Positions 1,617 through 40,146 of a stretch of DNA of 40,146 nucleotides are shown here, one piece after another. A program made the translations under genes and the position numbers. This DNA comes from Ectocarpus siliculosus (lineage: Eukaryota > Sar > Phaeophyceae > Ectocarpales > Ectocarpaceae): the NCBI GenBank assembly GCA_000310025.1, contig FN649741.1, positions 6,148,690 to 6,188,835 on the forward strand, read 5' to 3'. The notes beneath the pieces were generated by a model that worked only from the letters and a program-made list of their open reading frames with translations, was not told the origin of the DNA and did no database searches. Each line of letters opens with the position of its first letter. Positions within the stretch are counted from its first letter, which is position 1.

Positions 1617-2079
1617 TCAGGATCTGTCCTGTGCGTACTTTTGTGAACATAATCATACGAGTTTTCACAGCTAACAAACCCCAGCGCACACAGAGAGTAC
1701 TTGAAGTGCGGCTGATCAACTCTCTGTACACCTTGCTGAGCGTTGTCGCCATAGGTCAGGTGCTGTTGCCGAACGTTAATGTTTCGGTAGGTCGCACAAG
1801 ATGCAAGATACCACGCCCTCTCAGCCGATTTTCAAAGCCCGATTACGTATTCTGCAGCAAAAGCAACAACGGTGCCGACAATGGCGGCATTCGAACCGCC
1901 TCTTTCGTCGAGAGGCTTTCCGAACACGTATTGGAGTTTTGCATCCTCTTCGTCGTGATGTAAGCGGGCTTTGCTAATCGGTATCTACATGGCTGCGGAT
2001 CTTAATGTCAAGTCACTTGAAAAATGGTTCCACTTCCTCTTCAGTCGCATCCATCTGGGTGTGTACGCACAAATAAGAT

Positions 2080-11400: not shown

Positions 11401-14400
11401 ATGTGAAAGGCAACGGGCGCCATTTATTGGAACCAACACAATAATGTTATCTCCAGCTGTAGTACGACATATTTGAACCACGACTCCGCCGTGGGCAGAT
11501 TTCCGCTTGCGCGAAAAACTGTAGCATATATTTGTTGTATAAAGCATTTTGGATTCCACGTGCCCCCTTCACCTCCGTTGGGCGTGGGGGCTAAGCTGAT
11601 AGCGAAGGCAAGAAGAGAGCGGTGATGAGAAAACTACACTTCCAACTAACCACCGAAGTCAAGCGGGAGCCTGCTGCCCCGAAATCAGCGCGCAGAAATG
11701 TGCGTTTCTGGACAGCGGTCTCCTCGAATGAAGGATCCTATGTTAACCAGACTCTGAGCTCTCTTCCTCTTGTTGTTCATGCGAAAGCGTCTTTGAAGTG
11801 TCGTGGCTGATCCACCCCATGGTTTTTCTCTCTCTTTGGCTTCGATTTGTCTCCTATTTTCAAAGGTGTATGTTGTCTTGACAACGGTTTCGCTTGTATT
11901 CAAGTACGGTATTGGGTAGTTTGGGTGTGTTGATGATTGGTCGCACGGCTCATCTCCGTATGTAAATGATTTACTTGCGGTCTGCATACATACGCTTGGC
12001 GCATTGATGACGTTTATTCCCATAATTCATTCGCAGTGAAACCGCCGACGCTCACGCGCCCCGCCGGGCTGTGTTCGAGCTTGGGGCACCAAACTTCCTT
12101 GGATGTCTGAGCGCCGCAGCCGTTGTGGCACCGCTGTAGTTACATATGGTAGTTCGCTACAGTCACGAGGTGTAAATTTCTTTGGAAGTGTGTGCTGCAA
12201 GTAGAGGACTTGGTGAATGCCGCGTTGAATCATGGGGCAGAAATTGGCGCTTTGCATATGGGGATGGTTTTAAGGCAAATGGTTGACACCAGAGTTATCG
12301 GACAGCTGTTTTTCGTTTGTTGAAGGTTTTTTTTTCCTGCGGGTTACATAATTGCCGGATGGCCGACTGATGAAATATGCCACTCACTCGAGCGCAAATT
12401 GGAGTTTCATAGAGAACATGCCGGATACTGGCACTGGTCTATTTTTGGCCGCCAAGTTCTGGTCGGTCCCTGCACAACAGGGAGCGGGATGGTACGTTGA
12501 TGTGGTAGCGGGGGCGGTTCGTATAAGTCCGTGCCCTGCTTCATTCGCGTACTGTGGCAACTATTGTGGGATTTGGGTAGAACGCGGTACTCTATACCTT
12601 ACCTGAGCTTTTTCGAACAGGACCAATTTGAAGGGCTGGTCGCCCCCCCCCCAACTTGTTATCATCGTGTGGGGTTCCGTGGAATCACAGAGCTGGGTAC
12701 CGTCAAGGGTTCGGAGCTGGTGGGCCTGAAGTACGAGCCGATGTTCAAGTTCTTCGCGGACCGAGAGCAGTCGTTCGTGGTCTGCGAAGACAACTACGTG
12801 ACCAACGAGAGCGGTACGGGTATCGTGCATCAGGTGTGTGGTGGTGAGCGTTTTGTGATGGGAAGAAGACGACACACTCCGATAGATGTGCCTCGGAGTC
12901 TCGCTTCTGGTTGCCGTGTTCTTGAAGTTTTTTTTTTATGGAGTCCAGATATCTCCAGTGTTGCTTGGAGGTCAGGTGGCCACGCTCTGGTTGGTGTGGA
13001 CAGATCGAGCTGTGTGAGAGTGGGATACAGTACTCGAGGAATTCTCATGAACGGTCGGAAGCTCTGTAGGCCGTGCAAAGAGCGGTGTGCGCGCACCCGA
13101 ACATGAGAAGGATGGTGTCACCCAAGGCGCATTAATTGTTTTTGTGAACTTTCTTTTGGTTTGTCGTTTAAGGTGTTTTTGTTGTTGTACGCTTCACCTA
13201 AGCTGATCAGCAAATCATAAGGTGCTGACGGCTTGAGGCACAGGGGAGACGGAGAAAACGAACAGAATGAGGAAAACCACTCACAATGGAAAAGGCTTGA
13301 TTCTTCACCATGAGAGCCAACTGGCTGTAGGTTCTCTGACTGTTTCACGTTTCGTAGGGAGATCATGTTGTACTGCAGTTTAAGGATGGGAAATTGTGTA
13401 TTGTTGTACGCTGAGGCTCTTGACATATGTTGCCTGTGTTTGGAATAGTCGGTACGTGGCTTGGCGAGAGGAGAGTTCACGCAGAATGAGGAAAACCACT
13501 CACAATGGAAAAGGCTTGATTCTTCACCATGAGAGCCAACTGGCTGTAGGTTCTCTGACTGTGTTTGTCGCTCCGTGTGCATGTCGCACTCGTTCACGTA
13601 CAAGTGATCGTTTGATTATGTTCCGGTTGCATATCCGAACAGGCGGTTGGATGCGAAACCTTTGTCGTGTAGATTTAAAGATGTTGGTGGGAAGTAGAGG
13701 TGTGAATCAAAGTGAAGCAAGGTGTCGTTGTTTGGCCCTTGCGCCGTTCAGCGGTGGTGGAACGTGGAGTGCCCGTGTTGCTTTTGGTGGCGTGTTGGTG
13801 AGAGTTCTCGGCGTCCCCCTCACCGGTGTATGGTAACGCTTTCATTGGACGCGCACAAGTACAATTAAATTAATCCCTGGTTTTGGACACAAAATATTAA
13901 TGCCTGTCTATTCTCCCGGGGTTGAACGCTCACCACGCCAAACTTGAAGCCGGCTAGGCTCAGCAGCAGGTGGTATCCCCCAACTTTGATGGTCGTACCT
14001 TTGGATGGAGTCCCCCATCGTTCATGGACGTATATATGCTGTCATCATACGTAGGCATGTATCTAATGCTTCTTTGTTTATCACTCGGTTGGTATATCAA
14101 GCTTGTGCCAACTCGCCCCGTTGGCCTTCCTCACGCCATCGTGTTACATCCACTGATCCAGCCAGACCGGCCTCACGGTCGCTACGATTTTGCATGCGGG
14201 TTCTTTTTTTTTGTGTGTTTGTGGTTTCTTTGCCCTGCGGGCTTGTCTTGCTCACGACCCCCTACGCGTCCCACGCCCTTTTCTCCGCTGTTTACGTGTT
14301 TTGTTGTTGTGTGCACGTTATCGTTATCGTTATCGCTATCGCTATCTTAGTCACCGGCATTCGGTGAGGATGACTATCGTGTCTGTTTGGCACACGGCGT

Positions 14401-17400
14401 CATCGCCAAGGGCGAAGAGATCCCGTGCCCCGTTGACTCGAACGGGTGAGCCATCAATACCAGCCGTATGCTCCCCCCCCTCGCCCTTTTTCTGCTTTTC
14501 GTGGGTGTTGGCCGCCTTCATTTTCTTCTTTTTTGGGTGTTGGCCGCCTCTTTGTTCTTTTCCTGCTCGGTGTTGGCGAGTGGCTGCTGCAGATCTGATG
14601 TCGAGCGAAATGAAAACAACTGAGATGAGTCTGTTGTCATGTGATTTTGGGGTGGTGACCGACGGAGGCATCTGTGTCATGTTGTTCGTTTATTGTTTAT
14701 GCTTGTTGGTGTTTTTTTTTTGGGTGCGGTTGTGGTCTTAGCTGTGGCGTTTTCCCGCGTCCGCTGTCCAGCCGATAACTGATGTACGCCAATCCGCCGC
14801 AGTCCGATACACGTGCCTTTGTCTCCCCGACGTGGTGCTGTCGCCACACCTCCGACGCTCTTTTTACTCGGTCCGGAGTTGCTGATGTGCCAACCCCGAT
14901 GCTTTCCCGAATGGGCCCTCATGGTTCATTTATTCCCCACGGTCTTTCGGCCCACAGGTTGTTCACGTCTGAGGTGGGGGAGTATGCGGGTCAGTACGTG
15001 AAGACGGCGGACAAGGCCCTGTGCGACGAGATCAAGGCTAACGGCAGGCTTGTCTCCAAGGACAGTTGCACGCACAGGTATGTACGTAGCTTCGTTTGTA
15101 GGTGTGCGTGGTGGAAGGCGCCTCTTGGTGGCTTGTGCTGTGGGTGAAGTAAGATAAGATACCCCCCCCCCCCCCCCTGGACCTGTTTTTTGAAGCCTGA
15201 TTCCCGTGCATCACGATGACGAACTGTGGCTGAATAGTGATGTATGATCGTCAACGTCGAGAGCTTTTTAAGAATGTATGACATGGTTTGATGTTGGTAT
15301 CCTCGTCAATGTTGATTTATTAAGCTTTGAAATATCTGTCCAGGGGTTTGCGGTATCTTCCGTCATGACACCTCCTACGGTTAGCCCGTGTATCGGTGGT
15401 GCTGCCGGTGGCCGTGACGACTGGGATTCCCCGGGTGTTGGTGATAATTGACCCCGCGCTTGCGCTGTTGGAGACGACTGGGATTTTTCGTTTTGCGTTC
15501 GTATACGAGGGGCCACGAACGAGGCTCTTTAAGTAGATTTGGTAGACGTCGGAAACGGTTTCGTGTTTGGACCCTGAAACGTTGCCTTGCTTGTGTGCTG
15601 AAACCTCGTGCCGTTGCTGTTGTCACCATTTGTCTGCCCGACGGCTGGTTTTCCCAATTTTTCGTTACGCTGAAACTTACCCTCCGGTTGTTTCTTCGCT
15701 TTTTTGCCCCCCCCGCAGCTATCCCTTCTGCTGGAGGTCGGACACCCCTCTCATCTACAAGGCGGTACCTTCCTGGTTCGTGGGCGTCGAATCCATCCGC
15801 GACAAGCTTCTCAAGGCCAACGCCGAGACGTACTGGGTGCCCGCCTTCGTGAACGAAAAACGCTTCCAAAACTGGTGAGTGGCAGTATATGAAGTAGCTC
15901 TGCGATAGTTGCGCGCGGAACCTGCCAGTGCGCGAAGCACGTTGCTTTGCAGCGTTTTTTTGCGCGAACGACATTTTTGCCTGATGAGTCATGACGACAT
16001 GCCGTCAATACTAACGTACTTTTCAAATTGGCCTTAGGCCCAGTGATGATGACTCTTTTAACATGACCACCGAGTTTCTGTTTTTTACATGTGGAAATTT
16101 CAAGAGACACCTGTGTTTCTGAGGGCCAAAGGATTTTTTGCGAGTTTCCGTGTCCGCAAGAGTTTTTTCCCTTTTGTTGAGATCGGCAGCGCTCCGCGTG
16201 GGTTTTTTCCCACCTCGGTGACTGACTGTCTCTTTCACGCTCTGATTGCCAGTCTCTTTTTTTGTTTCGCGTTGTCATACCGTTTGATGTCCTGTCGTTG
16301 TTTCTCGCTTTTCTTGACAATGAAAGACTCACCTGTACGCTCCGCACATCCCCCTATGCCCAACACTTGGTTTTTTTGTTACCAATTGTCTTTTTGTTAC
16401 CAATTGTCTTGTTCTTGGTAGTCTTGTGACGCTCCCTTGTATGTGTTCGGACATGACACCTGTCTGTTTTTTTGTCGTGATGCTCACAATTTTTGTTTTG
16501 TGTCCGCGTCGACAGCGGGGTGGGTTTGAAAACCAAACTGAACACCCACATGTTTGTTTGCGACACAGGCTCGAAGGTGCGAAGGATTGGGCGGTGTCAC
16601 GGAATCGATTCTGGGGGACCCCGATGCCCATGTGGGTTAGCGAGGACGGCGAAGAGATGGTGGCCGTGGGCTCCATCGCCGAGCTCAAGGAGCTCTCCGG
16701 GGTAGAGGTGAATCAGATTGGGGCGGCATCAGTTTTTTTTCCTTCGTAGAATTTCTTCCTCCTTACTCCACAAAGAGTAATTGCGGGAGGGGGTGGGGGG
16801 AGCGTCCTCGTGTGTTGCATGCCTTAGTTGAAGATCTAGTGAGGGGTGGGGGTCTCGGGAAGGTACTCGTGTTTTGCGTGCCTTAGCGGTTTGGCCTCGT
16901 GATTATGCGTCGTCGCCAGGGAGGGAGAGCGGGCTGTCATTTGGCGCGACCATGGGGTGGTTTGACCCGCCGAAGTGGTGTTTCATTTTACCCTTTTTTT
17001 TTTTGGGGGCGACCCGCTTCGGCCAGGGAAGTCACTTTCGTGTTGTTTCAGCCCCCCCCCCCCGTTTGTGACCTCGCCCTGCTCTCTCGTTTTCACGCCA
17101 ACGTCTTTACCCCTGGCTGATGTGGTTGTGGTGTGCACGCACTTGGATCCGTATTTCGGCAACAAACGCAGGTGACCGACCTCCACAGAGAATCGGTGGA
17201 TCACATCACGATTCCGTCCAAGCAGGGCAAGGGTGACCTCAAGCGAGTCGAAGAGGTGAGCGAAGGGTGCGCTGCTTTTATTGGCTGTGTGGCAGGAGAT
17301 TTCTGGGTGCAATTGTTTCGTAGTCCGCTCTTTGCATGTACGTATGCGGTCGTTTCCACGGTGGCGTTCGTCTTGTGTTGTTGTTGTTCAGGCTGTTTGA

Positions 17401-20400
17401 TAAGAACTTTGTTCTATGATATTGTACCTCTTGTCGCAGCTTTGTTGAACACGTGCAGGTAGCTTGATGGCAATCGGGGATTCGTGTACAGAATTGGTGT
17501 ACCGTGGTGTGAAATTCGAATATCTTACTTGTGCTGTCAATGATGTGACTGGCGTACTTGCCTACACCCTCCCTGCGTTTTCCCGACTTGTCCTATCGAG
17601 CTTTTGCACGTCGCGATATATTGGGCCCTCAAGACTGAAAAATTCAAGTGTTTCCAATGTCAAGAACCAACACACCCACCCACGCTAATAATCTCTCCTC
17701 TCCTCTCCTTGTCTCATCGGCCGCTGCTGCGATATTCCAGGTGTTCGACTGCTGGTTCGAGTCGGGGTCGATGCCGTACGCTCAGCTGCATTACCCTTTC
17801 GAAAACAAGGACAAGTTCGAGAAAAACTTCCCCGCAGACTTTATCGCCGAGGGGCTTGATCAGGTGTGTGAGCTCACTCTGTCGGGGTGGTATGTATGTA
17901 GCGTTTTGTCCACGGCAGGTGTGGCATGACTATGTGGGTGCTGTAAGCCGTTGTAGTGCGCGGGATTCCGGAACCACTCTGATTGTTGCTTCCTGTGCAT
18001 ATCGCGTGTGATCACAGGAAGATTGTTTTTCTACCTTCGATGAAGTAAAGCCAACAAGAGCCAATACACGGACTAAGGTCGGCAACGGCCACTACAAACA
18101 AGTGGGAGGCGTTCTTCCTTATCTCAGTACATGCGGTGGCATTGTGCCTCTTTCGGTGCTTTACGTGCTCTATCTTGTGTGTCACGGCTGGCTTTGCTAT
18201 TCAGACTCGCGGTTGGTTCTACACCCTGACGGTGCTCGGCGCGGCCCTTTTCGACAAGCCGGCCTTCAAGAACCTGATCGTGAACGGCCTGGTGTTAGCC
18301 TCCGACGGGAAGAAGATGAGCAAACGCCTCAAGAACTACCCCGGTGAGCAAAGTCTTCAAGAAATACCCGGACAAACAGAAATGACCTCGGCGATGAGTC
18401 GGCCCCAGTAGTACGCGGACAAAGCGGAAACGAATGAGAGGGAGGGCCATGCGTGATATAAACATGGACGCCTTAAGCAAAGATTTTCTCCGGAGAAGCA
18501 AAACTCTAGAGACGGGGGGAAGGTGTGTGATGATCACGGTCTCACCTTTTGTTGCGGACAAGGTACGCTTGGTTAGGTGACGCGCGACGAAAATGGGGTT
18601 GCACTGTTGACGCTCACAGAGTTATCGTGGCAATTCCACGACAAAACGGCATGCGTTACACAAGTCTCCCATCATCACCCCACTGCTGGGCAACATCTCC
18701 CCCCGCCCCGCGATGTCCTCCACGGAACCCCTTCTCGCACAGTATCTTCTTACATGACCCCACTACTTGCCAACACCCCCCCTCCCCGTGATTGCCCTCC
18801 ACGGAACCCCCATCGGTGGCGGCAGACCCAATGAAGGTGATCGACTCCCACGGCGCGGACGCCCTCCGGCTGTACCTCATCAACTCCCCCGTTGTGAGGG
18901 CGGAATCCCTCAAATTTAAGGAGGAGGGGGTGCAGGCGACCGTGCGTGAGGTACTGCTGCCGTGGTTCAACGCCTTCCGGTTCTTCGTACAGCAGGTACG
19001 CTACTATTTAGTATCACTTTTTATCACCAGACCATTTAGTAAACTCTGCTAGGTATACTGTACTTGGAGGAAGTGGAAACATTGACGAAAATGGGTTCAA
19101 GTGCAATCTGCTAGAGTTGGCGTTCATTTTGATCTCTCGGACAAGCTGTGCGTGTCCTGGGAGGCGGGGGGGGGGTCTCACCCGGTCGCCTCGGGAGGTG
19201 ATGTTTCCATTCCACAACCTCTGTCTGGGTGAAGGTTGGAAGAATGAAATGCGCTTTTCACACCTCTGTATGGTTTCTATTCTAGTACCTGGGTCATCTT
19301 CGGGAGAATGTGTCGCGTGTCTCATTTGGTGTAGGTGTCGTAGCGCGTCACTCGCTGCTCCAACGTCGTGTTATTCTTTTTGGTTTTTGCAGGCCCGTCG
19401 GCTGGAGATGACGTGTGGCGATCGGTTCGTTCCCAATCCCGAGGCGGCCGCGAAGTCGACCAACGTCATGGACAACTGGATCCAAGCCACACTTCAGGGA
19501 CTGGTACAGGTGTGTACTGTAGCCAGTCGTGTTTTGTTGAGGACCGTCGCAGCCGTCTTTTTTATGGGCGCTGTGACACGAAATAGCTGTTGTTGACACG
19601 CTGGGCACCGGGAGGGGGTTGTGTTTTGAGACTCTGCTTTTTCCCGATTGTCTTTTTATTGCTTGAGCGTTGTGACGTTCACAGACTGGTGCAGGAAGGG
19701 AGATGTGTGTTTTGAAACCTGTCGCAGGTTGCGTATTTTTTGCGCCTGTTTTTGGTGGCTTTCGGCTAATGTTGTTGGTGTTGTTTTCTTCACATTAAAA
19801 ACTGTTCCAATCTCTCTACCCAGTACCTATGTTGCTCAATTAACTCCATATCCTGTGTATTGTCCTTCTTTTTGTTTCGTCGTTTGCCTCAGTTTGTTCA
19901 CACAGAAATGAAGGCGTACCGGCTCTACACGGTCGTCCCTCGACTGGTGGAGTTCATCGAGCAGCTTACGAACTGGTACGTCCGCCTCAACCGGAACCGC
20001 CTTAAGGGCGCGGAGGGGGCTGAGAGCGCCACGGCAGGTGAGAGCAAGAAGCGGATGGATGTCTTGGACAGTTTCATTGAACAGTTGTTGGACTGCAGAC
20101 TGACGGCATCAGGATGCTTTAGGATGAGTGACGTGGGCAAGGTTGAAGAATGACGGTGAAGAAATAATCAGAATCGTTGAGGAGGGCTGTCCTTCGGGAG
20201 TGGAGTCGCTCTGGGAGACACGGTTCCTGATGCAGAGGCGGATCACCCGTAGTCGCGAGGACATGTTAAGACATGGATGGGGTTAACTATTTCGGGCGCA
20301 GTCCTTTTCGATATGAGGGTGACTGGTGAACGTTCTGCTTTACTTTTATCGTTCTTTTGGCTGGCTGGGCTGTCTTCATTTTTTCATCAACAATTAGGAT

Positions 20401-23400
20401 GAAAGAAAATCAAAGCAACAGCATGGAGTTAATGATCGAATGCCTGCACTTTGAACCCCGTACTTGCTTGAGCTCCACCCCTTGAGTCCTTTCTTTCTCG
20501 TCGGTCGTTTATTAGACCAGCCAACCACAGACTTGACAGATCAGGTTCCAAGTCGACGGGCGGCGCGTCTGGCTTGGTGTTTGCCGATGAAGATTTGCTC
20601 ACAAATATGACTTCTGTGACACTCGGAACGCCGCTGATAACGGCTCTCTGTCGAGAATCTAAGCATACGATCTGAGGCTAGCAATAACAAGCAAGCAGGT
20701 TTTTCGCGTGACATCGATTTCTGACGTGATGAATTTCCTGCGTTGACGGAACAAACACCGCTAAGTGGTTGCCTTTTATGACATAATTATTTGTCTGAAT
20801 TACTGTAGTTGTTTTTCTTGGTCTAATTGGTTGTCTGTTTATGGCAAAATTATTTGTTTTTGTCGGTGCAGTTCAATCTGAACCTTCTTTTTGCGGATTC
20901 ATGGCAGTTTGGTGATGATGTTGACGCTTAGGCCCGCCAGTAGTGTTACTGTAGTTGTGGACGAGGCACGTGAGGAGGAGAGCGGCGAGACTCCTTTTCT
21001 TTTTTTCATGTTTTGCGTCACAAGCTCGTAAGTGGACACCTGCGTGAGGGGTGGGCGCGGCTGTTGCCGGTGATGATTTGCACACAAAAATGACTTCTGT
21101 GACACTCGGAACTCCGCTGATAACGGACCACTGTCGAGAACGTACGCAAATGATCTGAGGCCTGCAGCCAAGTGGCTTGTGCTGCTGTCGAATCAAGAAC
21201 CAGTGCTCGTCCCTAAACCCGTCGACCGTTGTTGTTTCCTAGAATCTGGCCTCATTGAAGAAAATACCGAAAGAGCTCAAGGGCGTACATTGGTTTGCGT
21301 GCCGTATCTGGCCGTTTTGTGTTGGTAGTGCACGTTGATTTGCGCGCAATTGTTTTTGGTAGAAGTCTTGCAGCAGCAAGACGACACTGGTCAGTGATGA
21401 TTTGCTCGCACACATGACTTCTGCGACACTCGGAACGCCGCTGATAACGGCTCTCTGTCGAGAATTCAAGCACTTCAATCTGAGGCCGTTGTGTGCCTTT
21501 TATTTCTAGTTGTCAGTACAGCAGTTTGTCAGATTGTCGCGTCGTTAATGACACGTGCGCGTTTTCACATGCAGCACAGGGTTTGGTGTGCTCTTGTGGT
21601 GCCTTCATGTCGTTTTGGTTATGTCGTGTGAACTTCAGTGTGAACAGCACGACCGCACACCCACACGTCGAGCTGTTTCGGGTCTCTGCGCTGACTTCAA
21701 CAACTACCTTTAGATGCTTTTGTTCCCAACACCAGCTGACATCACTGGTATAGTAATTCAGTGTTTTGGCTCAAGCAAAGTCAACACAAGCCCACTTTCC
21801 AGCCGTTTTCCCTCCACTCACTGAAAAGGCGTGGTGCACATCCCTTTCGACTGTGCTTGTACCTTGAACGGGTAGTATTTCCGTGAGATAATGTATGCTT
21901 TCTAAAAAATACTTGGAAGAAGGCCTACGACCTGTTTGCGTACCCATTTTCCTGTTCACGTACACTCCCCCTCCCCCTGTTTTCTTTTCCTCCCCTTCTC
22001 CTCAGGACTGTTTTGTATGTACGAGGTGCTGTCGACGATGTCGGTCCTTATGGCCCCCATCACCCCCTTCTTCTCGGAGTACACCTACCGCCACCTTCGT
22101 GAGTGCCACCCGGACAAGGACGGCGGCAAGGACGTAGCCGAGGATGCTCCCGGCCGCGCGAGCTCGGTGCACATGCTCATGATGCCGGAGGTTGACGAGT
22201 CGAGGTAAGAGCTGCAAGTTGCAGACGATGATGCTTTAGGGTTGTGTTGTTGTTTACACGCTTTTTGGTTGGGGCAGCTCGGTGCACGTGCTTATGACGA
22301 GAGCTGCAAGGAGATGGTGTGATGTTGACAATTTTTGCACGCCCGGAATACGTACGTACGTAGCTAGTCTATCTACAGCTAATCTATGCCGAATACAGTG
22401 GGATCCGAGCGTTCGCTGTTTTCGTTTGCCCTTTCGGGTTGTGTGTGGGTAGGACTCTTGAGTGTTTTGTTGGGGCAAGGTGAGGCGTTGGGGCTTGATG
22501 CCAATAGACAAAGGTCTTCGGGTTGTGTGTGATATTGCTGTTTGGAATGCGTCTCGGAAAAGCCAGGCGTTAATTTTTTCCCGACGGTACCCTCGGAGGG
22601 TGTTGGGTGACGTGTTTGATCATGTCCATGACGAGCACCCAAGGCAGTGGACGCTTTTTTTTTGGTTCGTTGTGCAGTTCGTTGGCCGCGACCAGAGTCT
22701 TGTTCTTCGTGACCAACTACTGTATGATCTCAGCATGGCTTGTCCGTTAACTCCCCCCCGCACCACACACATTTTATATTCCGCGGCGCCCCCGTTAATA
22801 TGACAGGCTCGACCCCCAGGCGGAGTCGGACATGCGAGCGATGCAGACGGTCATTGACCTTGGCCGCTCTGCCCGTGAGAAGCGGGGCATATCTCTCAAG
22901 ACACCGGTCAAGGGTATCACGGTGGTGTGCAAGGACGAGGGCACCCTGAAGGCCCTGGAGAAGCTGCAGGGCTACGTGAAGGGCGAGCTTAACGCATGGG
23001 AGGTGAGGATGGTGATAATTACCCCAGAAAGTAAAGTGCTTCACAAAGAGGGGAAGATGAGGGATTTATTGGGGGCTAATGTTCGAGTTGGAAGCGACGG
23101 CGGATTGACTGTGTATCGAAGCTAGGTGTGGTCGTTGGGAGCATGACGCAGGACCCTGCATGATTGCATCAGCTTTTAGAACCTACTCTTGTCTCATCTG
23201 TGAGTCGTGTGGGTATACCCACCCAGTCTTGATTGGGCATCGTTAAGTGCCCCGAAGGTTGACGCGCTGCAAGGCAAGATCATCCTGACTCGGATTCGCT
23301 ATGTAGAAGCCGAAGAGCAACTACATCACCTTTCCCTTCGTTTTTTCTTCTCGTTTGGCAAAAAAAAAAGGTTGTGCTGGAAGCGGACGAGAAGTCGTGG

Positions 23401-25413
23401 TGCACGCTAACGGCAGAGGCCAACAACAAGGTCCTCGGCAAGCGGCTAGGGAAGGCCCTCGATGGGGTGAAGAAGGCCTTGGTCAAGCTCGACACGGCCG
23501 CGCTCTGGCCACTTCTCGAGGTAAGGAAGGGACCTCCGCTGCTGCCTGCCTCTCTTGTGTGTAGCGATCGGTGCCTTCGTCCTGCTCACGGGAAAAAGCA
23601 AGCATGACGTGGCGTTGGTTGCAGGTGATGCCTCGTAGCGGTGTATTTGGCCGTGTCGAAGTTGTTGCGTGTGGGTTTAATCGCATCTGTTTTGCAGCCC
23701 CTTACAAAAGTTGATTTGTATTTTGTCCATTTTCCGGGACATCTCACGATTTTTTCTTTCGGGGGAATACTCCCCGTCGCCGTCTGCGTTTTTACCAGTG
23801 TTGTGTTGTTTTTGTCGCCGTATGCATTCGCGCTCTCATCATTAAATGCTTTACTGTGTGTGCATTGGTCCATGTCTTATCTTGTGAATGTTTGGTACGT
23901 TTTCAGGGGGGCACCGTAGAAGTGGCGGGACATACCCTCTCCGCCGACGACCTGATGCTGAAGAGAGGGTTCAAGGGAGACACGAGCGTCTTCCAGGCCG
24001 CCGTGTCGGAGGACGGGAAGGTGATGGTGGTCCTCGACACGCGCAAGGACGAGAAGGTCTTGTCGCAGAAACTCGCTCGAGAGATCGTCAGCCGCATCCA
24101 GAAGCTCAGGAAGAAGTCCGGCCTCCAAGTCGGCGAAACAGTGGAGGTGTGTACTTGAAGTTTTCTTGGTTGGAATGGCATTCCCCCTTGACCCCTGTTG
24201 TCGTTATTGGCGTTTATATGTACCCTTTCCAGTCTCCCCTCAGCACCGCCTATGGTTTCGTGTGTGTCCCTACACGTTTATACTACGTGTATCTGGAGGG
24301 TAAGAGAGGGCATCGACGAAGGCGACGTGCACGCTGGTACCCCGTGTAGTGGAATCAGACGGACAACTTCTGTGTGCACATTGTGTCTTATTCTGTGATC
24401 GTCTTGACTGCTGTGTGCACATCGTGTGTCATTCTGTGATCGTCTTGTGGGTATGGCGAGAGATGTTCACGCAACAGGACAGACTGGTTATGTGCATCTC
24501 CTGGACATAATACTTTGCATCCACGCGGACCACCCCGTAACAAGTGTGTCGTCATTTTCCCTCATTCGCATCGGTTGACCCGCTTCTTTTTTTCTGCTTT
24601 CGCAGGTGTTCTTCCAGGACGACACCAAGGACGGCGTCGCGGGGGCAGCGGTGGCCGCCAACGCCGCTCTCGTCGCGGACGCCGTTCGATGTATGCCGCT
24701 GCCGGCCTCGAGGATGCCGGAGCACGCCGTCCCGCTGGGGCACGAGAGATTCTGCGCGTGCGGGGGGGACGACGGCAAGGGAGAAGAGGCCGCCGCCGAC
24801 CAGGAGCCTGATTTCACGGTGTTCTTGACACGGCCCTGCTTGTCGGTGGACCACGTGCGTTTTGTCGTGTTCCTCGGCTACTCTCGCGCTCACGTGTTTT
24901 GCTGAAGCTCTGCCCTAGTGGCCCTTTGCGTTTTTGTGGGGAGAACAAAAGTGTTTTTATTTTTGTTGTACGCGAGTCTTGCTGTCCTGGCTGTGTGGAG
25001 GCGTGAGATTTTCTCTGAAATCTGCTGCTTGCGTTTCATTTCACTTGCTGCGCTCGAGGAATTGTGGCTACCATCTACACAAGAGAACGTGAGTCACCCG
25101 TTCGGCGCGATTCGCGTGGCCTTTCACCTCACCCACCTCTTGCATCAAACAACCAACCCTAACCCTGGTCACCCCACACCTCCCGCAGGAGGCGATGGAC
25201 GCAAAGTGCGTCGCTGCGAAGGTTGATCCGGCCGTCGCGAGGCAGCTGCTGGCATCGCTCGACTACGACCGCGTTCGACGAGAAGGGAACGCCACGACGG
25301 TTTTGACAGTCGGAGAGGCGTGCGTGACGGTGGATCTCGGGGCGGACTACTTCCTCGACGCGCGAGAGGCCCTGCGGAAGCGATGTCCGGAGGACATGAA
25401 ATGGGCGTTGTGA
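5445..25413 (+). CDS. Isoleucyl-tRNA synthetase, cytosolic eukaryotic type (24 exons)
   Basis: It charges tRNA-Ile with isoleucine using ATP (EC 6.1.1.5) in the cytosol; no transit peptide is visible. Exons: 5445-5498, 6060-6186, 6484-6620, 6896-7027, 7314-7511, 8719-8810, 10612-10724, 12691-12833, 14351-14445, 14958-15077, 15719-15874, 16569-16707, 17172-17255, 17741-17863, 18205-18343, 18826-18995, 19393-19509, 19893-20037, 22006-22204, 22807-23002, 23371-23520, 23907-24146, 24606-24854, 25189-25413 (stop TGA). All introns are GT-AG, and the joined frame is open for 1180 codons, between the yeast (1072) and human (1262) enzymes. Class I signatures are PHYGH (HIGH box, residues about 53-57) and KMSKR (about 608-612). 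The editing domain has [11 protein letters not shown] (about 222-232) and GTGIVHQ (about 326-332). Two in-frame starts exist: 5445 is the first ATG, while 5466 has the better context and would remove 7 residues. The donor of exon 23 could instead be at 24846. About 82 percent of the span is intron. Confidence 0.95.
6060..7511 (+). other. Synthetase exons 2-5: Rossmann catalytic half with HIGH motif
   Basis: Exon 2 carries [18 protein letters not shown], the ATP-binding HIGH box in its eukaryotic HYGH form, preceded by the [10 protein letters not shown] strand. Exon 3 continues with [17 protein letters not shown] and [13 protein letters not shown]. Exon 4 has the conserved [15 protein letters not shown] segment, and exon 5 has [10 protein letters not shown] and [15 protein letters not shown]. 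These blocks follow the order known for eukaryotic IleRS. Introns 2 to 4 are short (297, 275 and 286 bp), and the Gly codon at the exon 2/3 junction is split after its first base. Confidence 0.93.
8155..8394. repeat. Dispersed repeat in intron 5 (paired with 9325-9562)
   Basis: About 240 bp starting GGCCGCCTATTAGAGTCACT and ending near ACCACGCCCGACATTT recur in intron 6 at 9325-9562 with scattered substitutions and a few indels. I see no terminal inverted repeats and no coding capacity. Its 3' third occurs a third time inside the tandem duplication at about 9924-10007. It looks like a short non-autonomous element or a segmental copy. Confidence 0.8.
9325..9562. repeat. Dispersed repeat in intron 6 (paired with 8155-8394)
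   Basis: This is the second copy of the element in intron 5, in the same orientation about 1.17 kb downstream, with exon 6 between the two. Differences include GTAAAG versus GAAAAG near the start and loss of a few bases around 9436-9475. Confidence 0.8.
9481..10368. repeat. Tandem duplication, unit 443 bp, two copies
   Basis: Positions 9481-9923 and 9924-10366 appear identical base for base on reading, for example ORF 9632-9817 versus 10075-10260, an offset of 443. Both copies start TGGGTGACATCTAAAGC and end CGTCATCATGTA, with a 2-base TG overlap at the junction. The duplication lies wholly within intron 6 and does not affect coding. Apparent identity means it is either very recent or an assembly artefact. 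Confidence 0.9.
11048..11158. repeat. 111-bp direct repeat, left copy, in intron 7
   Basis: The segment TGATGACGTTTATTCCCATA to CTGAGCGCC is repeated at 12005-12115 with a single C/T difference (11124 versus 12081). The copies lie 957 bp apart and bracket 846 bp of unrelated sequence. The arrangement is like short terminal direct repeats, but no primer-binding site, polypurine tract or clear target duplication is visible. Confidence 0.85.
12005..12115. repeat. 111-bp direct repeat, right copy, in intron 7
   Basis: Near-identical partner of 11048-11158 in the same orientation. The following bases (GCAGCC) differ from those after the left copy (TTCGTC), which marks the repeat end sharply. Confidence 0.85.
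13263..13343. repeat. 81-bp direct repeat, left copy, in intron 8
   Basis: The segment from CAGAATGAGGAAAACCACTC to GTAGGTTCTCTGACTGT recurs at 13482-13562 with no difference that I can see. The copies are 219 bp apart. Confidence 0.85.
13482..13562. repeat. 81-bp direct repeat, right copy, in intron 8
   Basis: Identical partner of 13263-13343 in the same orientation. Flanks differ on both sides, so the unit is well bounded. Confidence 0.85.
14316..14347. repeat. CGTTAT/CGCTAT hexamer microsatellite beside the exon 9 acceptor
   Basis: Five to six copies of a CGTTAT-like hexamer run directly into the TTAG acceptor of exon 9 (exon start 14351), so the repeat forms the pyrimidine-rich region in front of the splice site. 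Confidence 0.7.
16569..18343 (+). other. Synthetase exons 12-15: second half of catalytic domain with KMSKS motif
   Basis: Exon 12 has [19 protein letters not shown]. Exon 13 has [13 protein letters not shown], and exon 14 has [13 protein letters not shown] and [11 protein letters not shown]. Exon 15 begins [16 protein letters not shown] and ends with [21 protein letters not shown], where KMSKR is the flexible ATP-stabilising loop. Exons 13 and 14 are phase 0 at both ends. Exon 15 ends after the first base of an Asp codon that is completed in exon 16. Confidence 0.93.
18673..18809. repeat. Imperfect direct duplication at the 3' end of intron 15
   Basis: The segment 18673-18731 (CATCACCCCACTGCTGGGCA to CTCCACGGAACCCC) is repeated imperfectly at 18752-18809 (CATGACCCCACTACTTGCCA to CTCCACGGAACCCC). 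The second copy lies about 16 bases before the acceptor of exon 16 and is C-rich, so it supplies the pyrimidine tract. Confidence 0.65.
19776..19830 (+). repeat. Dispersed repeat, copy 2, in intron 17
   Basis: Inverted partner of 3689-3745, with TTCTTCACATTAAAAACTGT followed by TACCCAGTACC. It shows that intron 17 contains part of an interspersed repeat that also occurs upstream of the gene. Confidence 0.6.
20581..20677. repeat. Three-copy intronic repeat, copy A (intron 18)
   Basis: The unit is about 90-97 bp. It contains ATGACTTCTGTGACACTCGG, then CCGCTGATAACGG, CTGTCGAGAA and a terminal TCTGAGG. Copies B (about 21064-21160) and C (about 21394-21485) lie further along the same intron in the same orientation. 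Identity is high but not complete, which implies older copies than the 443-bp duplication. Confidence 0.8.
21064..21160. repeat. Three-copy intronic repeat, copy B (intron 18)
   Basis: It differs from copy A mainly at GATAACGGACCACTG (A has GATAACGGCTCTCTG) and in the variable 12 bases before the shared TCTGAGG end. The start shares TTGCCG with copy A. Confidence 0.8.
21394..21485. repeat. Three-copy intronic repeat, copy C (intron 18)
   Basis: It shares TGATGATTTGC with copy B and GATAACGGCTCTCTG with copy A, and ends in TCTGAGG. The mosaic of shared differences suggests that the three copies arose from each other within the intron. Confidence 0.8.
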
Positions 25414-27676: not shown

Positions 27677-28837
27677 CTAAAATATGTCCTCAGCCTTGAC
27701 GCCCCAGACGAAATCCCCTCTTCGGGACACTTCGATCCCCTCCTCGGTCACTTGGAGTTCGTAGCTAGGGTCGGTTCTCCGAAAGCCAAAATATGATGGC
27801 CCCTTCTTGCGCAGAACGACGGTGCCGTCGACCGATACCTCCTGTGAGGTGAATATTGTAGGGGGTACCGAACACGAACAAGACGGTTGATAAGGGGAAG
27901 TGTTCGGGGACATGGTTCTCTGTAGGTAGTGTTGGCGGGGGAGAAGTTCTTCGTTTTCCTATGATTCCTTCTGCCGCTGCGTCTGACTTCTACCACCGAA
28001 CGTGCTCAAAGCAGAGAAGGGGAGCGCACCGACCAACGGAGGGGGGATACGCTAGTTACCAGGCGCGAGGGGGGAGGGGGCATATGGTGAGATGAATCGA
28101 GAAAAAGAGGCAAGAACTCCGCCCGTTTGGACCAACTCATAGTCATGAGGAACCATCCCGACCAACATCTAGCTAACGAACCCTGACACTCCAGCTATAA
28201 GGCTCTTGCTTTCCTCCAACGCACCAAGATACCCTTGCTGGTGAGCTTCAGCGTGGCCTCCCCCAGGTGGGCCTCCGCGCGGTCCCGTGCTCGCCGGTGG
28301 AGGAAGCCGCGCTTCCCAAACGGCAAGAAGCCCATAAAGGTGGACATCTTGGACTTTTTAAGTGTCCGACCCTCACGCAAAGCATTCTTCTTCACCAACC
28401 TCCGCAGGATGATTTCGGAACGAAAGTCCTCGGCCTTGGCCATCAGTCGCTCGTTGGCAGCGAGGAGGGTCAGCCGCTTCTGCGGGAGGGAACCCGTTGC
28501 CCGCCCTTCCTCATCCCGGGGCACCCTTCCGGTGGAGGTTGCGAACACTACGGAGCCATCGGCGGGCGCGGCGTAAACCATCTCTGTCTTCCGCGGGCTC
28601 AGCAGTTTGCCGAACAATACCTCCCCGACCCTCAAGACTGTGTCCTTGTGGAACTGCTGGTCGGGCGGGGAGTACGAGTTGCCGTTACCGTTGCCGTTAC
28701 CGTTGCCGTTGCCGTTGTCGCTACCGTTGCCGTTGCCGTTGCTGTTGCCGTTGCCGTTGCCGTTATCGTTGCGGTCGTTGTTGTTGTTGTTGTGGCTGTT
28801 GTGACCGTTGTGATTGTTGTTGTGGCTGTTCTGGCCG

Positions 28838-28884
<47 letters not shown>

Positions 28885-29379
28885 GCTGGCGTTACCGTGG
28901 CCGTTGTTGTTGTCGCTGGTACCGTCGCGGTTGTTGTCGCGCTTGCCTTGCTTCGTCTTCACCGTCCACGAGTTCGGAACTGGCACTGGTGCCTCGCCCG
29001 CTCCAGACGAAGTCTTACCGGAACCAGCGGTGGCAGTGGTAGTGGTGTGCGCAGAAATGGCATTGGCGCCAGCGGTGGTATCCTCGCCGTCGCCGTCGGT
29101 AGAGGCAGCTGCAGCAGCAGTAGCGGAAGAAGGCGCGCTATTGGGGGCGGTGGGTGACGCGGACGTGACGTCGGCGATTTCTGGTTTCGCAGCAGAAACG
29201 GGAATGACGCTGGCGTCAGCGGTGGCCTCGTGGTAGTTGCCGTCCGAGGCAGCAGCAGAAGGAGTGGGGGGAAAAGGCGGGCTTTCGAGGGCGGTGGGGT
29301 ACGCGGACGTGGCGTCGGTGATTGCTGGTTGAGCCGCAGAAACGGGAATGGCGTTGGCGGCAGCGGTAGTCTTGTCGTT

Positions 29380-29421
<42 letters not shown>

Positions 29422-32400
29422 GTGGAAAGGCATGCTGGCCGGGGCGGTGGGTGACGCGGCCGTGGCGTCGGCGATTTCTGGTTGGGTGGCAGAAACGGGA
29501 GTGACGTTGGCGCCAGCGGTGGTTGTGTCGCCATCATTGTCGTTAGGAGCGGCAGCAGTGGAAGGTGCATTTTGCTGGGCGGTCTGAGAGAAGTGCTTCT
29601 CGTCGGTTACTGGTTCGGCGGCGACGTCAAGCTCGGAGTTGCGCTCGATGTTGCTCTTTGCACGGTGGATGGCCAGCTTGCGCCTCAGCTCGGGGTCGTT
29701 GGAAATCTCTGTCTCGGCAGGGTCGGCCTCGCTCTAAAGTTTCTTGGATTTGCGCGGTACGTGGAGGGGGGGGGTGTGCAGGATAGAGAGAGATAGACAC
29801 AGGGGGAGAGAGCGTGGGGATGGCAAGTCAGCGCCTTTGTCGTGCAAACAGCCGTATTATAGATATATGCATGCAAGCAGTGGCAAGTTTCTTTCAACAT
29901 TTTCTTGTCGAGGGAGCGGGCACACCACAAGGTGGTGGCCGTGGCGGAGGTGAGAACCTTGCCGTTCGAAACTGGATCTGGATTCTCCTATTGGACAAAT
30001 TTCTTAGAACAAGTTACATGGAGGAACGCCATGTACTTGGATGGGATCGCCGCCTTCCGAAGACGGGACAGACTGTATCGTAATCGCTACCATATTTCTT
30101 TGGATAAACGTTGACAGAGACGGCCCTCCTCGCGAAATACTGCATACTGCAACAGCTAGAAGTTCATCAGGGCCTCCCCGCCCAATGAGCGAGCTTGAGA
30201 AAGAGGATACTCTCGAAACTCAACCCCGACGTGCCTCTCCCTAAGAAAATGTAAGAAATCAATGCTTGTACCTTGTCGGCCGCAGCAGGGTCGGCAACGA
30301 CGACCGACGTTGCCGTGTACCGCATGACCGCCTTCGCCGACCTCACAGAGCCTTGACTTTCGAGAGAGACGACACCGTGATCATCCACCTGTGCATGTGA
30401 GACGACCAAGACAGTAGCAGGAGCAGCAGCAGGATCAGCGGCAGGAGAGGTAACTGATCATGTCGTTCTCGTTGCTAATGACGACGATGTAGTCTATATG
30501 TTTACACAAGGATATAGCAAGAAACATCTCTACCCTCGAGTTGTTTCAAGATGGCGCTTGTGCATGTGTTAGCCGTGACAACACGCAGCGGGTGCACACT
30601 TAAAATACGCACATCGTCACGGAGCCAAATCTGCCGGGGCGACATGTTTTTCTAATGCGAAGATAACCACAATAAACAATAAATAGTCTTGTAATTGGGG
30701 CAAATCAGGTTTTTGCAAGCCCTGTGCGACACTCCAATCTATCTTGGCAGGAGGGGGGGCTACTCAAGGCAGCGCTGGAACACATGGCGGCGTCTTTGGC
30801 ATGTTTTACATTCATTCATCCTGCTTCATGCTCACCAGAAGTCCATGGAGGTGTTCCGGGAGCCACTTGGTCACCTCGAACACGACGCTACCATGCACCC
30901 GAAGGATGGGTTGTTGCATCTTCTGTCCAAGGGTTATTGAAATACGGCAACAAACGGCAGTGCGGTGTCATAGACCACTAGCTGCCTGACAGGAATTTCA
31001 AGAAGGAAGCACCTACCGGAGAAAACGAAAGACTTAAAAACCTAAGCTGTCGCTATGTAGGGTACAGTAGTTCGTACGTAGACTCCAAAGCAAACGATGT
31101 GGGATGGATGTGGTACCAACTGCTGTTGTTGGATTGATAGGTTTCTTCACCCTGATGTGCGATGTGCATTACTGTACTGACCTCGCCCCTCATGTACACG
31201 GTAGGCGCGCGGACCGTGAGTTGTGCCGCAGGGTGCACCACCAGGGTGAGGCCCGTCGTGTCCAATGACGCGTGAGACTTGACGACCGTGTTGCCCGTGA
31301 TGGCAATCGTCTGGGTGTACATCAAAGCGAGGTTAACAATGAGGAGGGAGGACCACGCCCTGTGGATAAGATCATTACTGTACATTCTCTGCACGGCAAT
31401 ATGAGGTCGGTTCGGACAAGCGAACGCCCCCTTGAAACATGCATTGAAGAGATCATGAGATCGACTCCCGGCAGAATAACTTTTTTTCCAAAATAGCATT
31501 TTTTTGTCACCAAAAAATATTTCTTCCCGTTGTCCCGTCGTGTCTGTTCTTCCAAGTGTCTCATTTTCGCCGCCCTGACGTTTTGATCCCGGTCAAGAGC
31601 AAAGATATAGGATCAACAATTGAAAACGGCGGTCAACTGATAGCTTAAGTCGTCATGATTACAAAGCAAAAAAAAAACGGGAAAAACTCTATTTCTCTTC
31701 CTACCCTTCTATTTTCATGTACTCCCCAAACAAACCCAAAAACAATTACTTAAATTATTTAAATCAAACACCCCTATATTTATTTGTTTTTTTGTGGCCG
31801 TACGGGAGAAAAAAACATAATAAAAATTCCTTGTGACAAAATTCGCTTGCGACCATGATTGCCGGAGTTAATTTTCTCAAAAGAGGGAGTGGCACAAGAA
31901 TATCCCCGAGTTTCCCTATCGGAGCGTTTATCCGGTCCGAGCATGCAAAAAAAAAAATCTTAAAAGGAACACCTGACCACCTAAACTACGAACCGACCTT
32001 CCTTATATTCCCGGATTTCCCAACCGACCTTATATTATTGCCCTGCAGAGGGAGTAGACAACATAATGATACAAAACATATACAATGCTAAGACAATAAT
32101 GTATGAAGACAGGTCTGCTAGTCTACAGGAGGAGCGTGGAGTGAGCGTTGGCGAGATTGCAAAAATTTATCGAGAAAGCAAAACAATGTATAATGTATCG
32201 CGCTTACAATACTAGTAATAATAACATAGTATGCATAACATGTCAAATGTTATATTTTCCTTCATTGTTAGCATTGTTCATGCTGCCCGACGCGACCGAC
32301 CCCAAACAAACTCGCATTACAGTAGACACCTGACCGAGAGGAATATGCCATTTCTTGAAATAAAATAATCGTCCCATCCAACAACCAACTGAACATTCGC

Positions 32401-33261
32401 GCGCGTTAAGACAATCAAGATGGTACGTACGTCCAACGGTCACCAACATGTTGAAACAGAGCAAGGGGTGGCAGCGGTGTGAAAACCTTGGACGGCATGC
32501 GAAGTGGCGGACATACCTCCTGCTACTGGGGGATATAGGGAGGGATGGATCCATGATGATAGCAAAACATATGGATAAATGGTGGTATGATCGATCTCCG
32601 CCAGAGTACGATGAATGTCAGCGGATCCGGCCGATGCGGCAACGGGTTGATGCGGCAACGGGTTGATGCGGCAACGGGTTGATTCTGTGGTCTCATTTGT
32701 TGTTTTTCGAAAGCGTCATCATATGTTTCGAATAGGGTGTCGAGCAAACCCGTTGTGTTTCGAACCAAAGAATGTGTATCCTGCCTGCGCTCGGGCAGCT
32801 ACAGTAAAGACGCAGCAGGATCTTTATTGTGGGGGCGCTTCGCAACCAACCAACGGAGTCTGGGAGATCTATGTATGTAGGAATCGGGGAGATCTATGTA
32901 TGTAGATGAGACAACCACGGTTCAAAGAAGGGCAATGCACACACACGCGCTTTTTTCTGTCTCGAAAATGCTCCCCAAGTTTCTGCACCACTGACTGTTG
33001 TTGTAGCTGTTGAGGTTGGCCTCGCTAAGGCTTCAGGGTTCAGAGGACATGTTTTCGCCGAGGGTTCAACGAAGATCTCACCTTGGGGGTTTCGATGCAG
33101 TCGATGGGGCCCAGGATGGTGAGGGTCGTCCCGGCCAAGGTAGCCTCGGTCGGGATGTCCGCACAGGTGCTGACCCAGGTGGGCCCGTCGCCGAAGGGAC
33201 GCGCTAGGATGCCCGGCATGGCGCAGGCGAGGATGGTGAGAAGAACCTTGGGGAAAATCAT
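27677..33261 (-). CDS. Secreted low-complexity protein of unknown function (5 exons)
   Basis: Reconstructed exons on the minus strand are 33261-33082, 31310-31182, 30388-30272, 29733-28225 and 27841-27677 (stop). All four introns are GT-AG and phase 0, giving 699 residues. The start at 33261 is the first ATG of its frame. Residues 1-20 (MIFPKVLLTILACAMPGILA) form a typical signal peptide. Residues about 21-140 show alternating hydrophobic, beta-like segments such as GTTLTILGPIDCIETPK, TIAITGNTVVKS and GLTLVVHPAAQLTV. Residues about 200-380 are Ala/Ser/Thr/Pro-rich with imperfect repeats of about 50 residues around the motif PVSAxxPEIADxTxASPTA. Residues about 424-441 are poly-Asn, followed by Asn/His and Gly/Asn repeats to about 494. 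Residues about 500-699 have basic and beta-rich segments. The last exon rests on a GTGCGT donor after SKGIL; retaining that intron stops at 28195 instead. I recognise no family; an extracellular or cell-wall protein is inferred only from the signal peptide and composition. Confidence 0.7.
28195..28224 (-). other. Alternative C-terminus if the last intron is retained
   Basis: If the donor at 28224 is not used, exon 4 runs on for nine more codons (VRWRKARAL) and ends at TAG 28197-28195, giving a protein of about 512 residues from the exon 4 start, or about 654 in total. The spliced form is preferred because the next exon continues in phase 0 with a similar alternating beta pattern (EVSVDGTVVLRKKG) and has a good acceptor (CACCTCACAG). 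Confidence 0.45.
28678..28770 (-). repeat. GNN microsatellite encoding Gly-Asn repeats
   Basis: Runs of CCGTTG/CCGTTA on the plus strand read as alternating Gly and Asn (with some Ser and Asp) on the coding minus strand. They are part of exon 4 of the secreted-protein gene and are likely to vary in length. Confidence 0.8.
28837..28885 (-). repeat. (GTT)n microsatellite encoding poly-Asn
   Basis: About 16 uninterrupted GTT units on the plus strand are AAC codons on the minus strand, giving a homopolymeric Asn run in exon 4. Shorter GTT clusters at 28781-28831 extend the Asn-rich segment with His and Gly interruptions. Confidence 0.9.
29060..29560 (-). repeat. Imperfect coding tandem repeats of about 150 bp in exon 4
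   Basis: On the coding strand, three to four units share the pattern Thr/Ala-rich spacer, PVSA, QPEIADAT or KPEIADVT, then ASPTAP or AYPTAL. They are visible at about 29540-29430, 29370-29280, 29220-29130 and, partly, 29080-29030. They expand the Ala/Ser/Thr-rich stalk-like region of the secreted protein. Confidence 0.7.
29381..29420 (-). repeat. (GCA)n microsatellite encoding poly-Ala
   Basis: Thirteen uninterrupted GCA units on the plus strand read TGC on the other strand, but in the coding frame they give GCT codons for Ala. The run lies in exon 4 just after an internal Met (29433) that a gene finder might wrongly take as the start. Confidence 0.85.
31640..32330. other. AT-rich part of intron 1 of the secreted-protein gene
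   Basis: Within the 1771-bp first intron (33081-31311), this stretch is clearly richer in A and T than the rest of the window, with many A and T runs (for example near 31665, 31785 and 31950). No exon or recognisable element is visible. Confidence 0.5.
32633..32680. repeat. 16-bp tandem repeat, three copies
   Basis: Three identical units of GATGCGGCAACGGGTT lie head to tail in intron 1 of the secreted-protein gene. A related duplication, GGGGAGATCTATGTATGTAG, occurs twice nearby at about 32864-32904, the first copy having one base fewer G. Confidence 0.9.
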
Positions 33262-39357: not shown

Positions 39358-40146
39358 TCAAGGCCGGACGCAATCTGCGACACTGAGACCACGCCCGCTC
39401 GCCGCAGCCGCGCCGGGAAAAAGCTCTTCCCTCGTCGTCAACGCCCCCGCGTTCGTGCTCTCGCGAGCCCCTCCGCCTCTCGCCGGCTCCGCGTCCGAGG
39501 GCGGCGCGCCGCCGTTGGTAACGCTCGCCATGCTATCGACGATCCTGCCGCTCGCACCCTGCTGGCGCGAATCGGCGAGCGAGACAGCGCGACACCGGAG
39601 AGACGCTCCCGAGAAGGATCGAAACGACGCAGGACCGTCCGTCGACGACGTGGCACCCGCGTAACGGAACGACACTAGGCCTGTCGCGAACGGATCATCC
39701 CCGTTCCCAGCCACCGCCGTCGCCACCTCCTCTGCGCGGCCGGCGACCCGGCACGGGGGTCGCGGGAAGCATATCTGATCGTTGCTGTTTCTCCCGGTCA
39801 CCGCCCGCCTAACCCCGCGCGGGCTCACGGCGGCGGCGCCTTCGCCGCCGCCGCCGCCGCCGCATCCGTCTGGCAGGGCAGGGACTCTACTATTCGATAT
39901 CGCGAACACCTGCTCGCGACGATCCTGGTGATGCTGCAGGCTTCGTCTCCTCGGTGTTGCGTTGGTTTTCTTCATAACCTCGGCTCCCGGCAAGCACAGC
40001 AACGGCGCCGGCAAGGCGGCAACCTGGGGCCCCCACCCCTCGCCGGTGCCGAGCGCGCTGGCGAAGCCGAGCGGCTTGACTTCTAACGACACGGCCGGCG
40101 GGGGCGCGCCGCTGCAGCCGCCCCAACCGCCGCCGCCACAGCAGCT
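39358..40146 (-). CDS. Open frame running off the right edge, probable 3' exon of an unidentified gene
   Basis: A minus-strand frame is open from the window edge to TGA at 39360-39358, about 262 codons with no ATG near the edge, so an exon entering from outside is likely. Codons are G-rich at position 1 and GC-rich at position 3, as expected of real coding sequence. The product is Ala/Gly/Ser/Arg-rich with a Gly run (from the GCC repeat at about 39840-39862) and no recognised domain. The opposite plus frame shares the same wobble positions but has stops at 39662, about 39777 and about 39928. High GC alone could also keep this frame open. Confidence 0.4.
   Translation of the reverse strand, partial: SCCGGGGWGGCSGAPPPAVSLEVKPLGFASALGTGEGWGPQVAALPAPLLCLPGAEVMKKTNATPRRRSLQHHQDRREQVFAISNSRVPALPDGCGGGGGGEGAAAVSPRGVRRAVTGRNSNDQICFPRPPCRVAGRAEEVATAVAGNGDDPFATGLVSFRYAGATSSTDGPASFRSFSGASLRCRAVSLADSRQQGASGRIVDSMASVTNGGAPPSDAEPARGGGARESTNAGALTTREELFPGAAAASGRGLSVADCVRP
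39829..39862. repeat. GGC/GCC repeat with hairpin potential
   Basis: A GGC triplet run (GGCGGCGGCG) is followed, after CCTTCG, by a longer GCC run, so the two can pair into a GC-only stem with a small loop. On the minus frame it encodes Gly-Gly-Gly. Confidence 0.7.

Follow-up and report, generated by a model that had tools for sequence, protein, structure and literature searches.

Arabinogalactan proteins are at least half proline, alanine, serine and threonine over the mature protein and carry many AP, SP and TP pairs. A further kind are the orphan secreted proteins with asparagine-rich tracts, in which a signal peptide is combined with a simple-repeat linker and no family can be assigned. 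In the brown algae themselves, each leucine-rich repeat of the ROCO genes is encoded by a 72-bp, phase-2 exon of its own, and these exons are shuffled (PMC11378527); B-type lectin domains have also been reported in brown algal PR-1 proteins (PMC12879055).

The locus analysed here lies on the minus strand, between positions 33261 and 27677, of a 40,146-nt stretch of Ectocarpus siliculosus DNA (‘the window’, to whose positions all coordinates refer). A split gene at this place is well supported as real, and it is very probably one for a secreted protein that lacks recognisable relatives in the collections searched, eukaryotic genomes and proteomes not being among them. Tentatively, we favour a six- or five-exon, phase-0 gene for a secreted protein of 728 or 699 residues that may serve as a matrix or surface tether with a basic C-terminal region. 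As in the ROCO genes, the exons are symmetrical and can be gained or lost without a frameshift; there, however, as PMC11378527 describes, they are tandem 72-bp, phase-2 repeats of a known domain, whereas here they are phase 0, unlike each other in length and sequence, and of no family. With the orphan secreted proteins the gene shares its signal peptide, its simple-repeat linker and its lack of a family, and we found no feature that distinguishes it from them. The GC content of 52.4% and the mean introns of this gene (680 bp) and of a control gene in the same window (792 bp) are near the values for brown algae in Table 1 of PMC6418280 (GC 54-56%, mean introns 530-740 bp); other eukaryotes may be compatible with them as well.

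The first-pass annotation had described five minus-strand exons, all joined in phase 0, and most of this description holds: the exons at 33261-33082, 31310-31182, 30388-30272, 29733-28225 and 27841-27677 are GT/AG-bounded, each is a multiple of three in length, and their 60+43+39+503+54 = 699 codons add up to the residue numbering that was given. The set of exons is less settled, since a possible sixth, at 30922-30836 (29 codons, phase 0), may have been overlooked—its inclusion keeps the frame and lengthens the protein from 699 to 728 residues—and some exon edges are open. Numbered with this candidate as exon 3, the gene reads as follows.

33082-33261, minus strand: exon 1; start codon, signal-peptide-like residues 1-20, beginning of the N-terminal region
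31182-31310, minus strand: exon 2; 43 codons, phase 0, valine/threonine-rich
30836-30922, minus strand: possible exon 3; 29 codons, phase 0, absent from the 699-residue form and could be optional
30272-30388, minus strand: exon 4; 39 codons, phase 0
28225-29733, minus strand: exon 5; 503 codons, phase 0
27677-27841, minus strand: exon 6; 54 codons plus stop, phase 0, with predicted strands

As a control we used the multi-exon gene for a cytosolic isoleucyl-tRNA synthetase on the plus strand of the same window (6033-24149), pieces of which, picked by composition and joined, match 9w01_B (‘Isoleucine--tRNA ligase, cytoplasmic’) at E 6.4e-160. Its structure comes from a custom spliced aligner, which fitted 5501-26500 to a profile built from six bacterial synthetases; within the aligned span, 6033-24149, it places 19 introns, 11 of them in phase 0, three in phase 1 and five in phase 2. 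Two doubtful introns, at 7545 and 8811, were left out of both splice training and phase count, leaving 17, whilst the codon table and intron background were trained on the whole aligned gene.

Under this synthetase-trained model, exons 1 to 6 score 30.3, 18.6, 8.6, 10.8, 153.0 and 15.2 bits in the stated frame, and all six are negative in both other minus frames: exon 1, at +30.3 bits, gives -52.6 and -12.0 there, and exon 5, at +153, gives -274 and -337. In a second composition test, for which the remaining exons of the gene itself served as training set and all six frames were read, the named minus frame is best for six of seven pieces, with exon 3 at 1.1 bits versus 3.8 in a plus-strand frame; its scores for exons 3 and 6 are matched at 7% and 5% of other places, respectively. 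Of the two, the synthetase model (minus frames only) is preferred. For background we took 49,604 bases in six stretches, on both strands, in which some of the high scorers lie opposite real exons (that at 33095-33236 on the plus strand, for example, is opposite exon 1). No initial exon candidate in them reaches the level of exon 1; of the internal candidates, three reach that of exon 2, 55 that of exon 3 (one per 902 control bases) and 17 that of exon 4, and of the terminal candidates six reach that of exon 6. Exons 1, 2 and 5 are strong, exons 4 and 6 moderate, and exon 3 is near background.

The splice sites are weaker than those of the synthetase. Among 309 GT sites in the region, the donors of exons 1 to 5 rank 9, 5, 1, 34 and 42, and among 287 acceptors those of exons 2 to 6 rank 38, 268, 22, 185 and 57; the scores run from 2.4 to 9.3 for donors and from -5.1 to 4.7 for acceptors, against donors of at least 9.4 in 16 of 19 and acceptors of at least 4.4 in 18 of 19 synthetase introns, a comparison that flatters the synthetase as the training gene. 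For exons 2, 3, 4 and 6 the best single-scored acceptors (31359, 30887, 30356 and 27776) differ from those named.

Chains of exons were assembled with an exon-based finder that returns one gene by construction and leaves phase free, with a 30-nt minimum and intron costs of 12 to 20; it supersedes an earlier version in which introns were too cheap, so that the gene region broke up into 12 to 35 exons and the controls into 27 to 37. At costs 16 and 18 the finder returns exons 1, 2, 4, 5 and 6, joined throughout in phase 0, thereby bearing out the five-exon chain of the first-pass annotation, except that it splits exon 5 by excising 29421-28957. Exon 4 is lost at cost 20. At costs 12 and 14 a small extra exon (33020-32989) appears and exon 2 starts at acceptor 31359, a phase-2 join, in place of the 31310 chosen at 16 to 20; acceptors 30388 and 27841 are retained wherever exons 4 and 6 are used. 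Exon 3 goes unused at costs 14 to 20 and is taken up only at 12, in shortened form (30874-30836); its donor ranks first and its codon score is +8.6 bits, but its acceptor is near the bottom of the ranking. Taken together, a single gene having exactly the joins listed above is likely.

At six times the length of the longest synthetase exon (range 84-253 nt), exon 5 is unusually long. It runs from an acidic stretch through 48-codon Ala/Pro/Ser/Thr repeats, poly-Ala, poly-Asn and Gly/Asn to a basic C-terminal part, and contains the following.

29102-29522, minus strand: tandem repeat, period 144, 2.9 copies, inside exon 5 (Tandem Repeats Finder)
29380-29418, minus strand: perfect triplet run of 13 units, poly-Ala codons; (AGC)13 on the plus strand
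28837-28884, minus strand: perfect triplet run of 16 units, poly-Asn codons; (GTT)16 on the plus strand
28678-28772, minus strand: hexamer array coding Gly/Asn; period 6, 15.8 copies, 82% matches
28225-28677, minus strand: non-repetitive C-terminal part of exon 5, which with exon 6 forms the basic region 524-728

The poly-Asn and Gly/Asn tracts announced by the first-pass annotation are therefore present, as the (GTT)16 run and the period-6 array. By part, the Asn/Gly stretch contributes 79.6 bits and the non-repetitive ends 36.8 (29733-29422) and 56.9 (28225-28677), and it is what lies between, 29421-28957, that raises doubt. This stretch scores -20.3 bits and is excised as a phase-0 intron at all five finder costs, and the 144-bp copies differ from one another at 15, 23 and 17 first, second and third codon positions (three pairs of 33 codons summed); with no excess at third positions, the array carries no sign of selection at the level of protein and cannot count as independent evidence that the stretch codes, although such a substitution test neither proves nor refutes coding. 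One may accordingly read the repeats and poly-Ala as an intron of a single gene, leaving the protein without tandem repeats and with a less unusually long exon 5. We regard this as unlikely: nearly all of the deficit sits in one GCT run (29421-29380, -20.1 bits, as compared with -0.3 for 29379-28957), the candidate donor (-1.3) and acceptor (+1.3) are both weak, and the stretch is open across 155 codons with a length that is a multiple of three. Because of the GCT run and the weak sites we have retained it as exon, with a flag. Coding of the tandem repeats, as first proposed, is in consequence likely but unproven: the repeats are there, in an open frame, and in-frame low-complexity DNA is no proof of coding. 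Nor need the locus hold one gene only. Exons 1-4 might form a gene for a small secreted protein, and exons 5-6, perhaps starting at an ATG at 29433, a separate gene with low-complexity sequence and the basic C-terminus; the acceptor of the exon 4-5 join is weak (185 of 287), an initial exon from 29433 to 28225 would score 119.4 bits, and the finder run does not weigh this option, since it yields one gene by construction. The frame is nevertheless maintained over the exon 4-5 join, and exon 5 is coding-like upstream of that ATG, in the 29733-29422 part, so that a division into two genes seems doubtful to us and the single gene is kept in what follows.

The all-phase-0 structure, on which the first-pass annotation had put weight as allowing exon shuffling or skipping, is unremarkable, as more than half of the control gene's usable introns (10 of 17) are of that phase, the commonest there. 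At that rate four junctions would all be phase 0 with a chance of ~0.12 and five of five with ~0.07, values that rest on one gene, a small sample, and leave unaccounted the frame-keeping choice of sites in the first pass; nothing here calls for a special cause, and the literature search returned nothing on point about Ectocarpus intron phase. The suggestion of shuffling fares no better. Skipping in frame is possible in principle, all internal exons being symmetrical, and exon 3, with its best donor and poor acceptor, would fit optional use. A tblastn search of the window, for which exons 1 to 4, exon 6 and both non-repetitive ends of exon 5 (but not its low-complexity middle) served as queries, found no second copy of any exon, the best match outside the gene having E 0.11; the gene is single-copy within the window, and none of the exon pieces compared is a copy of another, so nothing shows shuffling. 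That the protein owes diversity to exon shuffling or skipping, in the manner of the brown algal ROCO or NB-ARC-TPR candidate immune receptors, is for these reasons a most improbable reading: the ROCO case involves tandem copies of one repeat exon, 72 bp long and in phase 2, whereas the internal exons here measure 129, 87, 117 and 1509 nt and show no mutual similarity in the parts compared by tblastn. We have therefore set aside a ROCO-type exon-shuffling receptor. A milder version, in which optional use of exon 3 and length changes in poly-Ala and poly-Asn would give a lineage-restricted surface protein several forms, tethers of varied reach and strand content, also strikes us as quite unlikely. 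Variation in repeat length between individuals, which had been anticipated, is in itself plausible from the DNA, and (AGC)13 and (GTT)16 would be the likeliest sites of change.

Turning to the protein of the single gene (numbered in the 728-residue form), residues 1-20 resemble a signal peptide, in agreement with the first-pass annotation: the N-terminus is hydrophobic, with a preceding positive residue (K), and its best 12-residue hydropathy is 2.14. The hydropathy of residues 2-22 is equalled in 23 of the 591 open ATG 25-mers of the window, eight of them with K/R at positions 2-7, its own start included. Residues 21-171 are valine/threonine-rich and, judged by eye, strand-like. Thereafter come acidic segments (172-223, pI 4.8; 224-432, pI 4.1), an Asn/Gly-rich segment (433-522) and the basic region 524-728, with a pI of 10.1, 38 K+R versus 26 D+E and a net charge of ~+12 that is concentrated in an 82-residue stretch. 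There are three N-glycosylation sequons and three cysteines, one of the latter within the signal peptide. Single-sequence structure prediction was poor for the C-terminal piece of exon 5 (mean pLDDT 44.7); for exon 6 alone (54 residues) the mean is 65.5, rising to ~82 over residues 31-50, with strands predicted at 27-32, 35-40 and 43-49 (exon numbering), and a Foldseek search of the PDB with this model gave 231 matches at E <= 10, of which 0 at E <= 0.001.

That the protein belongs to no recognised family, as first stated, is upheld for Pfam, NCBIfam, PHROGs and PDB sequences. In Pfam the sole entry listed, PF10262, has E 0.12 and is below its cut-off; NCBIfam and PHROGs gave no family, and among PDB sequences the best E was 0.65. 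Residues 21-171, taken as a parallel beta-helix candidate, matched nothing in Pfam or NCBIfam and no PDB sequence better than E 2. No relative was found among viral contigs, searched with residues 1-171 and with the C-terminal part of exon 5, or in the genomes of bacteria and archaea, searched with the C-terminal region alone. Since these searches lacked eukaryotic genomes and proteomes, the gene may well have relatives there. The literature search found nothing that combines Ectocarpus, signal peptide and asparagine-rich, and nothing on this protein. Comparison with arabinogalactan-protein-like or P,A,S,T-rich matrix proteins shows a partial likeness: the signal-peptide-like start and a 208-residue linker stretch with 65% Pro/Ala/Ser/Thr are alike, whereas the figure for the 708 mature residues is 37.6%, AP, SP and TP pairs are few (8, 5 and 3), and the non-repetitive ends are large. 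An arabinogalactan protein was rejected on these counts.

A more specific proposal would see in the C-terminal region a bulb-type (B-type) lectin domain that has diverged, and in the whole protein a mannose-binding lectin that is secreted. By eye, a loose strand pattern, L-x-L..DG-x-V-x-V..G-x-x-V, can be read three times in this region, and we scored it with a profile started from one seed sequence and widened in three rounds to 187 motif-bearing domains; of these, only the seed ORF was compared with Pfam, where it matches PF01453 with E 5.4e-4 and 20.9 bits, below the cut-off of 32.4. Shuffled sequence reached the score of the region in 6 of 1,000 cases (528 of them giving a score at all) and that of the version lacking the basic insert in 0 of 1,000 (658 giving a score), compared with 225 of 1,000 for the N-terminal region as control. 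Real sequence is less kind to the idea: the 1.6 bits of the region are equalled by 33 of 1,636 unrelated real segments, and the 4.7 bits without the insert by 19 of 3,076, whilst every one of the 140 ORFs called by the profile reaches 24.7 or more. Moreover, the aligned stretches are short and differ in register from the pattern seen by eye, and a Pfam match is absent. PF01453 was dropped because equal-length controls from real proteins often scored as well, even though the region beats its shuffles, and we hold the lectin reading to be very unlikely.

This returns us to the tether, which we prefer tentatively. A signal peptide would direct the protein out of the cell, where an N-terminal region of ~150 residues and the basic C-terminal region of ~205 residues, both with strand-like stretches, would be held apart by a long, probably disordered linker acting as a flexible spacer. 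From its charge and from the architecture of the protein, the C-terminal region may attach to acidic polysaccharides in the cell wall or matrix; the wall polymers of brown algae are alginates and fucans, and we infer that these would be the ones contacted. The N-terminal region would meet another partner, the protein thus behaving as a tether or matrix component, with no special role for exon phase (phase 0 being a common class) or for the repeats, which would be drifting linker.

In favour of this reading are the coding scores, which for all six exons are positive in the stated frame and below zero in both remaining minus frames; the recovery of the five-exon chain, barring the split of exon 5, by the free-phase finder at costs 16 and 18; the absence of any control initial exon to match exon 1 in 49,604 bases; the hydrophobic N-terminus and the charge pattern (pI 4.1 for 224-432, 10.1 for 524-728); and the composition of the linker, 65% Pro/Ala/Ser/Thr over 208 residues, together with the three sequons. 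It is weakened by the want of a homologue, by splice sites weaker than the synthetase's, by exons 3 and 4 being weak alone and exons 2, 3, 4 and 6 having better single acceptors, and by the repeat region not being coding-like, the great length of exon 5 and a useless model for its C-terminal piece. If real and expressed, the gene joins the secreted proteins with low-complexity linkers that seem to be specific to one lineage, and supplies a candidate matrix binder. Its all-phase-0 exons are near the ordinary output of this genome; in-frame exons and stretchy repeats are ordinary and alone show no new mechanism.

Elsewhere in the window, in which neither a tRNA nor, at gathering score, any Rfam family was found, two coding-like pieces (24603-24857 and 25162-25374) may extend the synthetase gene. 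The long, doubtful synthetase intron 8811-12580 contains a perfect tandem duplication (9481-10368, plus strand) with a 443-bp unit, or 445 bp by blastn, and 9324-9565 has a relative, 94% identical, at 8154-8398. Another synthetase intron carries three dispersed copies of a ~95-bp element (20581-20678, 21064-21161 and 21395-21486), 82-89% alike. Near the window end, at 39394-40122 on the minus strand, lies a GC-rich, coding-like stretch of 243 codons without a Pfam match, in which plus frames also score. A 334-codon open frame on the plus strand (2077-3081), also without a Pfam match, resembles by eye the C-terminal part of a LINE-type reverse transcriptase, and 1200-1553 is a minisatellite with 8.4 copies of a 42-bp unit.
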